Shown: positions 12,535 to 52,421 of the stretch, one piece after another
Layout: each line of letters begins with the position of its first letter
Numbering within the stretch: position 1 is the stretch's first letter
Assembly: GCF_009208775.1 (NCBI RefSeq)
Contig: NZ_WFLM01000009.1
Coordinates: 1-64,000 of the forward strand
Reading direction: 5' to 3'
Length of the DNA: 64,000 nucleotides
From: Silvanigrella paludirubra
GTDB taxonomy: Bacteria > Bdellovibrionota_B > Oligoflexia > Silvanigrellales > Silvanigrellaceae
Translations under genes and position numbers: made by a program
Notes under the pieces: generated by a model
Told to the model about the DNA's origin: nothing
Database searches by the model: none
What the model saw: only the letters and a program-made list of their open reading frames with translations

Positions 12535-12858
12535 TTATTTAATCCCCAAAGTCTTCATTATAATCTGAGCAACAACCTTACTTTTAGTTAGTCCCGTTTG
12601 TTCAACTAAATTTTCAAGAGCTTCATTAACATCAGGTCTTAAATGAGTCATTACAGGTTCTAGGCGTGCTTTTTTTTGTTTCTTTTTTAGTTCTCTTAGT
12701 TCGTCAACAAAAGAATTTACGCTAGCAGAATTATTTTTTGGCTCTTCTGTTACGGTAGCGGAAGCTCCTACTATTTGGGGTTGTGGCTCATCTGTTGGTG
12801 TTGCTTTAATTTTAAGTGATTCTTGTAACCTTTTATTTGTTGATGGCGCGATGCTCAT
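12535..12858 (-). CDS. ParA partner, ribbon-helix-helix-type partition protein
   Basis: 107 aa. Residues 1-55 are a disordered Pro/Thr/Ser linker; residues 70-107 (VMTHLRPDVNEALENLVEQ then SKVVAQIIMKTL) fit a C-terminal ribbon-helix-helix. It is the second gene after parA with a 1-nt gap. Small RHH partners with flexible N-termini that stimulate ParA are typical of type Ib partition (ParG-like). It probably binds the repeats at 13747-13782. Confidence 0.7.
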   Translation of the reverse strand: MSIAPSTNKRLQESLKIKATPTDEPQPQIVGASATVTEEPKNNSASVNSFVDELRELKKKQKKARLEPVMTHLRPDVNEALENLVEQTGLTKSKVVAQIIMKTLGIK

Positions 12859-12859
12859 T

Positions 12860-13654
12860 TTAGACTCCTTCTACTATATTGGACAACTCTTTATATGCTA
12901 CCGCAACGTTAGAATCAGGAGCGAATAAACCTACGGGAGTTTTTTGGCGCTGACTTTCAATTACTTTTACAGAGTCCGGAACTTTCACGGTTAGAAATTT
13001 TTCTTTGTACTCTTCTTCTAATTCATCGAGTAGAGCGCGTACAGCATTGGACCCGCCCTTTTGAAATGAAGTAACAAACACGCCTAGAAGTTGTAAATCG
13101 GGATTGTTACCACTTTCTTTTATCATCTGAGCAACTTCATGAATCGTGCGCATCCCTTTTTGTGAGTACACGCTTAAATCTGTAGGAACCAAATAATAAT
13201 CAGCCGCAACAAGAGCATTAATAGTTAGAACATTCATTAATGGAGATAAATCAATTAAAATATAATCAAAATTATCTTTTATTTTTGCAAGTATACTTTT
13301 TAAAATATGTTCTTTATTCAGTCGGCTGTGCAAGTGATCACTGATAGTTGCGAGTCTACAATCAGAAGGAAGTACAAGCGTATTTTGCCATGCTTCAATG
13401 GCTGGTTTAATTATTTCATCCAATTGAACCTTATTTTTAACATCTAAAAAAGCATCAAAAATAGTTTTAGTTTCCTCGTCTGTTACTTCACTCATACTCT
13501 TACCTAAAAGCATTTTGCTTGCATTTTCCTGTGAGTCTAAATCAACAACGAGCACGCTTTTACCAGAATTTCCAAGTTGGTACGCGAGTTCAATTATAGT
13601 TGTAGTCTTTCCTACACCGCCCTTTTCGTTCACGATTGCAATTGTTCTTGTCAT
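12860..13654 (-). CDS. parA: ParA-family partition ATPase (type Ib size)
   Basis: 264 aa. Deviant Walker A KGGVGKTTT (residues 11-19), Walker A' VLVVDLDSQEN (34-44), Walker B DYILIDLSP (about 131-139). No N-terminal helix-turn-helix, so it fits the short type Ib class. GGAGG lies before ATG 13654. It is in an operon with the RHH protein and would segregate the phage-plasmid over the nucleoid. Confidence 0.9.
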   Translation of the reverse strand: MTRTIAIVNEKGGVGKTTTIIELAYQLGNSGKSVLVVDLDSQENASKMLLGKSMSEVTDEETKTIFDAFLDVKNKVQLDEIIKPAIEAWQNTLVLPSDCRLATISDHLHSRLNKEHILKSILAKIKDNFDYILIDLSPLMNVLTINALVAADYYLVPTDLSVYSQKGMRTIHEVAQMIKESGNNPDLQLLGVFVTSFQKGGSNAVRALLDELEEEYKEKFLTVKVPDSVKVIESQRQKTPVGLFAPDSNVAVAYKELSNIVEGV

Positions 13655-13807: not shown

Positions 13808-15217
13808 TTACAAAAGAGCTTTTAATCTCTCTAATCCGTCATTACTTAATTGTATTACTGCTAAAGCGGTGCAATCAAACTGATCATCATATTTAGCTTT
13901 TGGAAATTTACTCATTTCACTCACATATTCAGGAACCCAAGGGAACAATTTAGGGTTCGGTAAATAAATATTTCCAGCTTGTTGCAAAGGTTGAACAACT
14001 AAACCTCTGTTGAATTTTTCGGTTTTAGGATTGAATGGAATTAAGCCTGAAATTTTATTTTTTAGCATTGAAATAACAGCACTACCATTTGCTTTATCTT
14101 CTATATATTTAGCATGTGCTAACGGATATTTATTTGATAATAATTTTACTTGTTCTATTTGTTGTGGGAAGTCCCAATGACCACGAACTTGATCCAATAA
14201 ATAAAGGTTAACACCTTTTTTGCCCCAAACTTGCCCGACTGTAAAATCATTATCCTCTGAGCCTTTGAAAGAAAAATCCCAAGTTTGAATAATGCGGTCG
14301 TAAAAAGTAAATGGTTGATCGTAGTAACGCCAATCTTCTCTTTTAAACAAAGTACCACTAGCAGGCAATGGGTCCTGTTGATATTGAGCGTTCCAATTAT
14401 AATCGCCAATTGTCTCTTTAATGTCCTGAAGCGCTTCTAAGTCATAAAGCTCAGGAAATAAAGCCTCTCCTCTTTTTCTGTTTATTTCGTTTTCTGTTGC
14501 TATAGCTGGATAGCAAACAACTTGCCATTTATGAGGTTCTGTTCTTAATAAATAACCGCTCAAATCATCTTCATGCCAACGGGTTTGGATTATTAAAATT
14601 CCAGCACCTTTGTAGCGTCTAGTATAAACTGTGGATTTGTACCAGTTAATTACTTTATTACGCATTGTATCGGAGAGGGCTTCTTGTCCATTTTTATGAG
14701 GGTCATCAATAGAGATAATATGACCGCCTTTTCCAGTAATTCCAGAATCCACACTACCAGCAATGAATGAACCGCCGTAAGTTGTTTTCCATTTTTGCAA
14801 TGACTTACAATCTTTTTTTAAATCAAATTTTGGAAATATTTCTTTGATCCAATCTTCTTTGATTAAGTCCCTGCATTTTCCTGAAAATTCTTCTGAAAGT
14901 GTTTGACCATATGAAGTAGAAATATATTCGCCTTTAGGATACTTACCCAAAAACCATGCAGGAAATCTTTCACTAAAATGAAATGATTTTCCATGTCGTG
15001 GTGGCATGAACATCATTAATCGAGGGGATTTTTTATCAATAACATCTTGAGCAAATTTCTCTAATCTTCTGCATATATCAACATGTACCCAACCAGGAAT
15101 ATAATCTGAAAAACTTTTTTGACAGAAGTTTAAAAAATCATCCTGTTCATTTTTACGTTTCTTTATTTGATTGAGTAATTCAAGAATTTTAATTTTTTCT
15201 TGAATACTACTTGTCAT
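13808..15217 (-). CDS. terL: Terminase large subunit
   Basis: 469 aa. Walker A MPPRHGKS (residues 71-78), Walker B HIISIDDP (about 164-171), coupling motif IIQTRWHEDD, then a nuclease domain beginning IQTWDFSFKG with acidic residues at YIEDKANG and KYDDQFDC. It cuts and translocates DNA into proheads. The minus-strand orientation, opposite to the other structural genes and 4.7 kb from the portal, is unusual. Overlaps terS by 11 nt. Confidence 0.92.
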   Translation of the reverse strand: MTSSIQEKIKILELLNQIKKRKNEQDDFLNFCQKSFSDYIPGWVHVDICRRLEKFAQDVIDKKSPRLMMFMPPRHGKSFHFSERFPAWFLGKYPKGEYISTSYGQTLSEEFSGKCRDLIKEDWIKEIFPKFDLKKDCKSLQKWKTTYGGSFIAGSVDSGITGKGGHIISIDDPHKNGQEALSDTMRNKVINWYKSTVYTRRYKGAGILIIQTRWHEDDLSGYLLRTEPHKWQVVCYPAIATENEINRKRGEALFPELYDLEALQDIKETIGDYNWNAQYQQDPLPASGTLFKREDWRYYDQPFTFYDRIIQTWDFSFKGSEDNDFTVGQVWGKKGVNLYLLDQVRGHWDFPQQIEQVKLLSNKYPLAHAKYIEDKANGSAVISMLKNKISGLIPFNPKTEKFNRGLVVQPLQQAGNIYLPNPKLFPWVPEYVSEMSKFPKAKYDDQFDCTALAVIQLSNDGLERLKALL

Positions 15218-45046: not shown

Positions 45047-45727
45047 ATGGATACTTTTAATGATTTTATGAAAAAAACTTTTGAAAATTTAGAATGTGAT
45101 TCTTATTTAGAAGATTTATTTAGTAACATAGAATTATTTACAAATGATTTTATTGAAAGGAAATCACCTAGATTAATTGTAAACATGCCACCAAGAAGCT
45201 TAAAAAGTGAATCAATATCAATAAGACTTCCGGCATATTTACATTCAAAAAATCCAAAATTAAATATTGGCGTATTTGTTGCGAATCAAGATCTTGCAAA
45301 TCATTTTTCATGCAAGAATAGTTGTATTTATAATAAACCAAATAATATAAAATATATAGGAATAAGTAATGAAAGCATAGATGATTTAAAATTTGATATT
45401 ATTATAATAGATGACACTATAAGAAGTTCTAAAGAATCAGAATCTTTAAAATTTAAATTCAAGACACATACTTTTATAAAAAAACTTTTAGAGAAACATT
45501 TAAATCCTTATGGTGGTTTTATAAATGTTCAATCTCGCTGGTGTAAAGACGATACAACTGGATTTTTGATAGATGTATGTAATAATCATGATTGGAAAGT
45601 TTTAAAATATCCCGCGTTAAATAGTAATGACGAACCTTTAACAAATCTATTCAAATACAAAAAAATAAAGAAAAATATTAACTATAAATATTTTCAAGCC
45701 TTATATCAGCAAGATCCTATTTTATGA
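45047..45727 (+). CDS. Terminase-like ATPase-only protein, 226 aa
   Basis: It aligns by eye with the ATPase half of the TerL encoded at 13808: IERKSPRLIVNMPPRSLKSES (Walker A), DIIIIDDTIRSSKE (Walker B), FINVQSRWCKDDTTGFL (coupling motif) and an ending QALYQQDPIL that coincides with the ATPase/nuclease junction of TerL. The nuclease domain is absent, and the segment between Walker A and B is about 35 residues shorter. Either a decayed second terminase or a recruited ATPase. It lies in the lysis cassette. Confidence 0.7.
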   Translation: MDTFNDFMKKTFENLECDSYLEDLFSNIELFTNDFIERKSPRLIVNMPPRSLKSESISIRLPAYLHSKNPKLNIGVFVANQDLANHFSCKNSCIYNKPNNIKYIGISNESIDDLKFDIIIIDDTIRSSKESESLKFKFKTHTFIKKLLEKHLNPYGGFINVQSRWCKDDTTGFLIDVCNNHDWKVLKYPALNSNDEPLTNLFKYKKIKKNINYKYFQALYQQDPIL

Positions 45728-48212: not shown

Positions 48213-48497
48213 TTATTTCAGTAAAGATAGAAGATTATTTTTATCTTGTATTATATCTTTCTCTACAATAGAGATATCAACCGCACTTGCTCCTTCAATT
48301 CTATTCTCTTTCGCAAGCATATCCAATGCATAATTCATAAGCCAAATAGCTCGATCCGCCTGAGACTTTTGACCTCTAGGAAAGTTAATTTTTGAGCTAT
48401 TAAAAGAAGTTTTAGCATTCTTAATAAAGTTTAAAACATCTGTATTCTCTTCCGAGTCAGGCAACCGCATTTGATAAAACTTTTTTTCGTCACTCAT
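48213..48497 (-). CDS. parR: ParR-like centromere-binding protein
   Basis: 94 aa. KKFYQMRLPDSEENTDVL gives the beta strand and start of a ribbon-helix-helix; the second helix pair is QADRAIWLMNYALDML. Size, RHH fold and ATGA overlap with the actin-like gene fit a ParR adaptor of type II partition. Confidence 0.75.
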   Translation of the reverse strand: MSDEKKFYQMRLPDSEENTDVLNFIKNAKTSFNSSKINFPRGQKSQADRAIWLMNYALDMLAKENRIEGASAVDISIVEKDIIQDKNNLLSLLK

Positions 48498-49492
48498 ACT
48501 ATGGACACCTTTACGCTAGAGTTTCCAATATCTATTGATACATGTTTGTATGATGATTTTAACTTAGACAAACCAGCAACAACGCTAAAAGTTGGATCTA
48601 AGTCTTCAACAAGTTCGGTCATTAGAATAATGTTATAACCGTTACCTTTAGCGATTTCCTTAAGTACAGACATAAATACATGATCTTTTGCTGCACCACC
48701 ACTGACAACAATATTTTTTGCTCTATCTTTATAACGGGCATTTTTATTTAAAAGTTCTCCAATAACTGAACGGATAAATTGTCTGGCAGCAGTTTCTTTT
48801 TCCTTCAAACAATCAATTCTTTTTCCATTCATACCGGATTTTTCTGGCATGTTACCTAATTGCCATGAGTTTATTGCTTCACTTGATGATAAATTTTGTT
48901 GGTCAGAAAAAACCTGAATTGCTCCTGCTAAACCTTCAACGCGTGCGTAAGAATCTGGTAAATTCTTTCCATCAACTCTACTTGCTTGTTGCCAGTCACC
49001 GTGCCCGATGTGCCAATATAAAAAAGTTTTTGCGTCAAGTGGAATGTTGAGCATAGAAGCTAGGAATTCATATGCAATAGTTGGTTCTTCCTGAATAATG
49101 ATTTCGCAATTTTTCCAATTTGAATCAGTGGATTTATCCTTGAACCTAATATTTGCTACTGTTTCCTTAAGCAAAGCAAGTTTATTTCTTGCAAGGGTAT
49201 TATCACCTACCTGATCACGAAACTGATCCATAAACTGAAAAGGGACGCTCATGGCTAATGAAATTACGTGTGTCCCTTCTCCCAAAGCTCTTGCAAGTCC
49301 TGCTTTTAATAATGTTTGGTAATGATCTGACTCTAAAGTTCCACCAAATATTCTTGGGCTATGAGGATTTAAAGTTTGCGCCAGATCGCCTACAACCGTT
49401 TCAATTCCCTTATCATCAATTAAAATTGATTGTTTATTTAGCAACTCTTTTTCTTTGGGGGCAGAACAAATAAAACTTGGTAGAAATTCCAT
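48494..49492 (-). CDS. parM: ParM-like actin ATPase, apparently circularly permuted
   Basis: 332 aa from ATG 49492 (GAGGAA upstream). Actin-family motifs appear in the order connect-1 QEEPTIAYEF (134-143), phosphate-2 WHIGHGDW (160-167, Asp replaced by His), adenosine IVVSGGAAKD (261-270) and terminal helix DPTFSVVAGL (299-308). Phosphate-1 IDIGNSSVK (320-328) is last. In normal ParM the phosphate-1 loop is at the N-terminus. The N-terminus here (FLPSFICSAPKE) corresponds to the strand that normally follows it. Operon with parR. Confidence 0.8.
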   Translation of the reverse strand: MEFLPSFICSAPKEKELLNKQSILIDDKGIETVVGDLAQTLNPHSPRIFGGTLESDHYQTLLKAGLARALGEGTHVISLAMSVPFQFMDQFRDQVGDNTLARNKLALLKETVANIRFKDKSTDSNWKNCEIIIQEEPTIAYEFLASMLNIPLDAKTFLYWHIGHGDWQQASRVDGKNLPDSYARVEGLAGAIQVFSDQQNLSSSEAINSWQLGNMPEKSGMNGKRIDCLKEKETAARQFIRSVIGELLNKNARYKDRAKNIVVSGGAAKDHVFMSVLKEIAKGNGYNIILMTELVEDLDPTFSVVAGLSKLKSSYKHVSIDIGNSSVKVSIV

Positions 49493-49863
49493 TAGATAGT
49501 TCCTCATATTTTAAAGCATAAATATTTTAGCTTTAAAGGGTGAATTCTGTTTATTGCATAATTAAAATACATATAAAACATAAAATTCACTTCCTTATCA
49601 CACAAATAAAATTTATTGCATAAATAACATTTGTTTATTTATGCAAATGCAATGTAACGGAAATTTTTAGAGAGGGGAAGTGAACTAATATAAAAATTTT
49701 AATTTTTATAACATATTAATTTGACAAATTAGAAAACAAGATGAGTATATCTAATGATTTAAATAATTTTTATAATTGGAGGATTTATATTATATGATGA
49801 AATACTAGAAGAGAAATAAATTTAATCTTTTTAATTAAATAATATTAAAATAGGAAATATATA
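49493..49863. promoter_or_regulatory. Candidate parC centromere and promoter region
   Basis: Gene-free 371 bp between parM and 49864. Two copies of TTTATTGCATAA (near 49549 and 49613), a perfect 12-bp inverted repeat TTGCATAAATAA (49616-49627) / TTATTTATGCAA (49635-49646), and opposed AATTCACTTCC / GGGGAAGTGAAC segments. Upstream repeats of this type are where ParR binds and nucleates filaments. Confidence 0.6.
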
Positions 49864-51974: not shown

Positions 51975-52421
51975 TTAAAATTGACCTTCGTCGCATTGAA
52001 GACAGATAAGCCCCATGCGTCGCCACATGTCGACTACCTGTTTACGATCATCAACGCAAAAGGTCACGTCAAATCTTGGCTGAATGTGCAAATTATAAAT
52101 CTCCTCCTTAATCACTGCATCCTGACGATAATCTTGGTCTTTTCTCATTAGTAATAAATCGTAGAATTGATCATGGGTAGCTAGCCATTCCTCGGTTATT
52201 GCCCTTGTAAACTCATTACGACCAGTAACTAATATTATTTTGTGAGAGCCTTTAAAGTTTGTAATAATTGAAGCGCACCATGTATTTAACTTGTCTTGAA
52301 TTATATTTTCATCTTTTAAAAAAGACTTCCAATCCTTTTTTGAGCCTTCAATAAATTTTTTTCTATGTTCGCAATCTGCTAAAGTACCATCCAAATCAAC
52401 AATAATTGCTTTTTGTTTCAT
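51975..52421 (-). CDS. Polynucleotide kinase-type 3'-phosphatase (HAD family)
   Basis: 148 aa. HAD motif I is IIVDLDGTLADCEHR (residues 6-20), motif II LVTGR (about 64-68), and the C-terminal FCVDDRKQVVDMWRRMGL is the signature of the T4 PseT phosphatase domain. The kinase half is absent. It would remove 3'-phosphates from nucleic acid ends during repair or replication. Confidence 0.85.
   Translation of the reverse strand: MKQKAIIVDLDGTLADCEHRKKFIEGSKKDWKSFLKDENIIQDKLNTWCASIITNFKGSHKIILVTGRNEFTRAITEEWLATHDQFYDLLLMRKDQDYRQDAVIKEEIYNLHIQPRFDVTFCVDDRKQVVDMWRRMGLICLQCDEGQF

Follow-up and report, generated by a model that had tools for sequence, protein, structure and literature searches.

The actin-like gene and its motifs

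The stretch of DNA analysed here (the window) comprises 64,000 nucleotides of a 67.6-kb contig from Silvanigrella paludirubra. Its central feature is a gene for a predicted ParM-like actin, which is followed by a small ORF and preceded by short repeats. The positions of these features, and of the motifs discussed below, are given in Table 1.

The list of ORFs opens the actin frame five codons earlier than is indicated there, at the ATG at 49507, which would give a protein of 337 residues. The ATG at 49492 is considered the better start because a Shine-Dalgarno-like AGGA lies 5′ of it and because the same methionine begins the protein of a close relative (L009). The in-frame extension upstream of the ATG at 49507 amounts to a single codon.

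Numbered in the 332-residue protein, WHIGHGDW occupies residues 160–167, IVVSGGAAKD residues 261–270, DPTFSVVAGL residues 299–308 and IDIGNSSVK residues 320–328. All of these motifs had been quoted, at the same positions, in a first-pass annotation of this DNA. It is apparent that an actin-type adenosine motif (GG) is present and conserved, and that it is followed, in order, by the DPTFSVVAGL helix and by a D-x-G hairpin with which the protein ends; the C-terminal end reads VSIDIGNSSVKVSIV. To our knowledge, the chain of every known actin, from ParM to muscle actin, opens with the phosphate-1 hairpin. R100 ParM, for example, starts MLVFIDDGSTNIK, and the equivalent hairpin comes at the very end of the chain studied here. 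Canonical partition actins with the N-terminal loop are also present in the same genus, where they begin MIISIDSGSSNLK, and in Pigmentibacter. The annotation had proposed that the S. paludirubra chain opens at the strand that normally comes after phosphate-1, and this was borne out by profile–profile alignment.

Table 1. Features of the actin-like locus and of a second partition system, by position in the window
Feature	Position	Strand	Remarks
Permuted ParM-like actin gene (predicted)	48494..49492	-	332 aa from ATG at 49492, stop at 48494; matches phrog_691
Phosphate-1 hairpin SYKHVSIDIGNSSVKVSIV	48497..48553	-	C-terminal here, N-terminal in canonical proteins; assigned from conservation and rotation scan
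Adenosine motif IVVSGGAAKD	48683..48712	-	SGG and D kept in all clade I members
Phosphate-2 loop YWHIGHGDWQ	48989..49018	-	Asp replaced by His; G-x-G-D-x-Q invariant in clade I
QEEPTIAYE, likely connect-1 region	49067..49093	-	Aligned with PQGVGAL / PESIPAG of canonical ParMs; role inferred
New N-terminus MEFLPSFICSAPKE	49451..49492	-	Profile–profile alignment with the strand after phosphate-1 (FCEPSLVEE in canonical L021)
94-aa ORF, candidate ParR-like adaptor	48213..48497	-	4-base overlap with the actin stop codon
Three TATTTATGC iterons, candidate centromere/operator	49516..49644		Copies at 49516 (-), 49618 (-) and 49636 (+); degenerate copy at 49550
ParA-type ATPase (AAA_31)	12860-13654	-	Second partition system on the same putative phage-plasmid
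107-aa partner of ParA	12535-12858	-	Part of the same second system

No phosphate-1-like motif was found within 600 nt upstream of the gene in any forward frame, either in the window or at ten related loci. The protein does contain a second D-K-G, at residues 27–29 (DDKGIE); this is the turn of a different hairpin, aligns in the profiles with SGKWYVAG of the canonical proteins, and is missing from most of the Aeromonas members and from clade II (see below). Homologues with a second D-x-G loop at the N-terminus, which the first-pass annotation had named as evidence that would refute a permutation, were looked for and none was found.

A frameshift or a missing N-terminus was also considered, and was rejected, since nothing resembling phosphate-1 lies upstream and the same order recurs in independent records. 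For an assembly error or frameshift artefact no support was found; the order is the same in independent genomes, a MAG and finished plasmids, and an artefact of this kind can for practical purposes be dismissed.

Distribution of the permuted order

The permuted order is common to eleven relatives, which fall into clade I (Silvanigrellaceae, Oligoflexaceae and Aeromonas plasmids) and a divergent clade II. Within clade I, the most similar proteins are those of another genome of the same genus (95% identity) and of a Spirobacillus cienkowskii MAG (85%). Those of a 44.8-kb Pigmentibacter ruber plasmid that carries a terminase gene, and of a metagenome contig close to that plasmid, are 40–41% identical; two Oligoflexaceae-like genomes, so labelled on the basis of their position in the same class, give about 35%, and several Aeromonas plasmids 30–33%. 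Clade II consists of a protein encoded on a 44-kb contig (C1) of the S. paludirubra genome and one from another genus of the family (28% identical). No relatives were found among the phages of an annotated collection.

Several individual copies deserve mention. An insertion sequence of the ISAs1 family interrupts the permuted actin gene of Aeromonas media pE31A (L007:6282-8618). The proteins at L044:9337-10425 and L014:1408-2532, which belong to a different family within the class, continue for approximately 25–30 residues beyond the hairpin, and the gene in G047 has chromosome-like neighbours. The clade II actin of the same genome (G000:C1:15406-16416; L041:7407-8420) lies on a plasmid-like contig, with a 99-aa ORF downstream of it.

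The D, G and N of the C-terminal motif are invariant in all 12 permuted proteins, at identities down to about 30% or less, and the K is invariant in the clade I members (10/10).

Effect of restoring the canonical order

Transfer of the C-terminal block to the front raised the score of the S. paludirubra protein against phrog_691 (partition protein) from 39.4 bits (E value 8e-10, profile positions 40–322 of 329) to 49.0 bits (E value 9.7e-13, positions 6–321). Its score against Pfam ALP_N rose from 17.1 to 24.2–25.3 bits and the start on the profile moved from position 33 to 2, although even the rotated sequence stays just under the cut-off (25.3 versus 26.3). The clade II protein of the same genome behaved similarly against phrog_691 (50.5 to 60.1 bits, start 28 to 4). 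An Aeromonas member that was unmatched in native order gave 16.5 bits when rotated. No improvement on rotation was observed for the Oligoflexaceae member, which has some 25–30 extra residues after the hairpin.

In profile–profile comparison, the 12 permuted proteins were set against R100 ParM, pSK41 ParM and three Silvanigrellaceae proteins, all five being partition actins of canonical order. The score increased from 49.0 in native order to 71.1 after rotation. Controls in which the columns of the moved block were shuffled had a mean of 49.3 and a maximum of 58.8, and none of 200 reached the rotated score. Clade I alone rose from 25.4 to 30.1, again with none of 200 shuffles as high. The two clade II sequences alone gave no rotation gain against this home-made five-protein profile, and single sequences, for which the profile is weak, gave only small gains against it. 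The rotated query matched relatives less completely than did the query in native order, in line with their sharing the permuted order. When the cut point was varied, scores were high for starts from approximately 273 to 325 (in the 337-residue numbering) and dropped once the cut passed the D-x-G.

A comparison of native with rotated searches had been suggested in the first-pass annotation, and the phrog_691, ALP_N and profile–profile scores were all raised by rotation. Together with the shuffled controls and the conserved order of the motifs, these scores support the circular permutation that the annotation had inferred, and at the level of sequence a permutation of the actin chain is strongly supported.

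An alternative is that the gene encodes a truncated or decayed ParM, which has lost its N-terminal phosphate-1 and whose C-terminal D-x-G arose by chance and is unrelated to it. The failure of structure prediction to place the C-terminus (see below) could be cited in its favour. Set against this are the retention of the motif in 12 proteins from diverse hosts, its match to the canonical motif through rotated profiles, which no shuffled control equalled, and a reading frame that is intact in every copy except the one interrupted by an insertion sequence. Decay is, in our judgement, very improbable.

Origin of the permuted proteins

In a tree built from rotated sequences, all of the permuted proteins lie on one side of the branch that separates them from the canonical ones (support 97/92). 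As inferred from this tree, the data favour, but do not prove, one origin for both clades: the tree has long branches, and the score of clade II lies nearer to the canonical set than that of clade I.

Structure prediction

AlphaFold was run twice, each time with four sequences, and gave models of low confidence (mean pLDDT 63 and 56, pTM 0.47 and 0.44), with termini below 50. In the second model the C-terminal segment forms a strand pair, also at low confidence. In a fold search with the model, ParMs and other actins headed the list, with Ta0583, MreB and, for the chromosome-encoded ParMs, 8x1i among the top matches, but at a poor TM of about 0.3. Solved structures were also searched by sequence, and neither the native family profile nor the rotated protein nor that of clade II gave a match. 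Because both models are of low confidence at the termini, they do not show the closing of the nucleotide cleft.

The arrangement that is proposed is as follows. The first β-hairpin of domain IA, containing the phosphate-1 loop, would come from the 3′ end of the gene, and strand three of that domain IA sheet would open the chain. The two new chain ends are inferred to be adjacent in the fold, and the nucleotide cleft would consequently be rebuilt using the residues that are translated last.

The phosphate-2 loop

The replacement of the phosphate-2 Asp by His, noted in the first-pass annotation, proved to be real and to extend to the whole family. The Asp is absent from all permuted members, being replaced by His or Gln in clade I and by Ser in clade II; the patterns are W/F-H/Q-I-G-H/G-G-D-x-Q and SIGFGT, respectively. 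Mutation of the equivalent Asp in AlpC abolished hydrolysis and reduced filaments (PMC4446434). Given this result and the absence of the Asp here, ATPase activity in the permuted proteins may differ or be lost.

These same observations lend some weight to a reading in which the permuted actin relative hydrolyses ATP poorly and acts as a static scaffold or switch. The phosphate-1 D-x-G and the adenosine motif are retained, however, and in clade I the invariant Asp and Gln further along the phosphate-2 loop could substitute for the missing residue. We regard a scaffold or switch as unlikely, though not to be dismissed. The prediction is that hydrolysis either uses other residues, such as this Asp and Gln, or is slow.

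The downstream ORF and the upstream repeats

Wherever the permuted gene is intact, a small ORF lies 3′ of it, and one likewise follows the canonical ParMs found in this genus. No match to the 94-aa ORF of the window was obtained in family searches; a ribbon-helix-helix in the small partner is suggested by eye only.

The word TATTTATGC occurs upstream of the gene, in the same place, three times in the window, four times in L002 and six times in L009, compared with 0.02–0.05 copies expected for that word in shuffled sequence. When corrected for the choice of word (the most frequent 9-mer compared with shuffles), the P value was 0.0025 for L009 and about 0.1 for the window and L002. The identical word is thus present in all three Silvanigrella-type loci, though only L009 is clearly exceptional after correction. 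Repeats of this type were not found in the remaining relatives.

The replicon and the role of the actin

The 67.6-kb contig carries genes for a terminase, a portal, a head protease, a tape measure and a baseplate, as well as for RecT-like, S24 repressor-like and replication-initiator-like proteins and an SSB. It has no tyrosine integrase, and no overlap was found between its ends. From this gene content the contig is best read as a phage-plasmid.

Two other genes in the window were recorded. A 226-aa ORF (45047-45727, +) matches a terminase large subunit in part only; it is distant from the full terminase at 13808-15217 and may represent a second terminase or a remnant. A stand-alone polynucleotide kinase 3′-phosphatase-like (HAD_PNKP) protein is encoded at 51975-52421 (-), adjoining the SSB gene.

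Since the replicon also encodes a ParA with a small partner (Table 1), the permuted actin is not necessarily the sole or principal partition system there. It either provides a second means of segregation or acts on phage DNA. By analogy with ParMRC, we interpret the protein as driving an actin-type (type II) segregation system of a low-copy phage-plasmid. It would most likely polymerise in an ATP-dependent manner and push or position copies of its own replicon, and it would be linked to the DNA by the small adaptor encoded just downstream, bound to the iterons upstream of the operon; binding by the adaptor is inferred.

The other possibility is that the actin serves the phage's own DNA, in positioning or transport during replication, and not the segregation of a dormant plasmid. 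The head and tail genes, the nearby SSB and RecT-like genes and the ParA already present on the replicon would fit such a role, for which AlpC of prophage CGP3 is a precedent (PMC4446434). The distribution of the relatives is less easily accommodated: some are on conjugative-type Aeromonas plasmids, with no phage setting in the stretches examined, one Oligoflexaceae relative lies among chromosome-like genes on a large contig, and no ParA-type match was found on the Pigmentibacter phage-plasmid. A role in phage DNA handling is accordingly given only a minor share of our confidence, and segregation remains the preferred reading.

Relation to known systems

The best-matching families are phrog_691 and ALP_N (PF17989), which include the canonical proteins L021, L022 and L048 of the same genus or family. 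These canonical members share the gene-pair arrangement but differ from the permuted actin in that the loop falls among the first 15 residues and phosphate-2 reads DIGSCTTD. R1/R100 ParM (ParMRC, type II) resembles the permuted actin in its actin-like ATPase motifs and in having an adaptor gene directly downstream, where the permuted actin has its candidate adaptor; the permuted actin differs in that the phosphate-2 Asp is replaced, and the similarity is seen at profile level only. Repeats lie upstream of the R1 ParMRC operon, as do the candidate iterons at the permuted locus.

AlpC, from the Corynebacterium prophage CGP3, is likewise a phage-borne actin with a DNA-binding adaptor; the usual phosphate-1, connect-1 and phosphate-2 motifs are given for it, and permutation is not mentioned (PMC4446434). 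Dh-cParM1 and other chromosome-encoded ParMs are found outside plasmids, as perhaps are the Oligoflexaceae members, and the text describing Dh-cParM1 does not mention permutation (PMC12270681). The first-pass annotation knew of no described permuted partition actin, and none was found in the literature, in a search confined to open-access papers. Within that limit, the permuted order looks like a genuine, previously undescribed actin family.

Taken together, the data make it probable that the gene product is an actin-like ATPase of the ParM/Alp type whose chain has undergone natural circular permutation; its fold, use of ATP, filaments and role in segregation are inferred. Whether this is an ancient and widespread permuted family of single origin, whose rebuilt site, with a phosphate-1 that is translated last and a phosphate-2 without Asp, makes it a mechanistically different filament ATPase, is a more tentative matter, and the evidence falls somewhat short of tipping the balance in its favour.

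The permutation helps to explain why such genes are annotated as mere hypothetical proteins. A natural permutation also reveals which connections a filament-forming fold can spare. Here, a moved phosphate-1 hairpin and an altered phosphate-2 loop are combined in a single natural protein that can be compared with ordinary partition actins of the same genus, and it offers a ready-made test of how nucleotide state is coupled to polymerisation.
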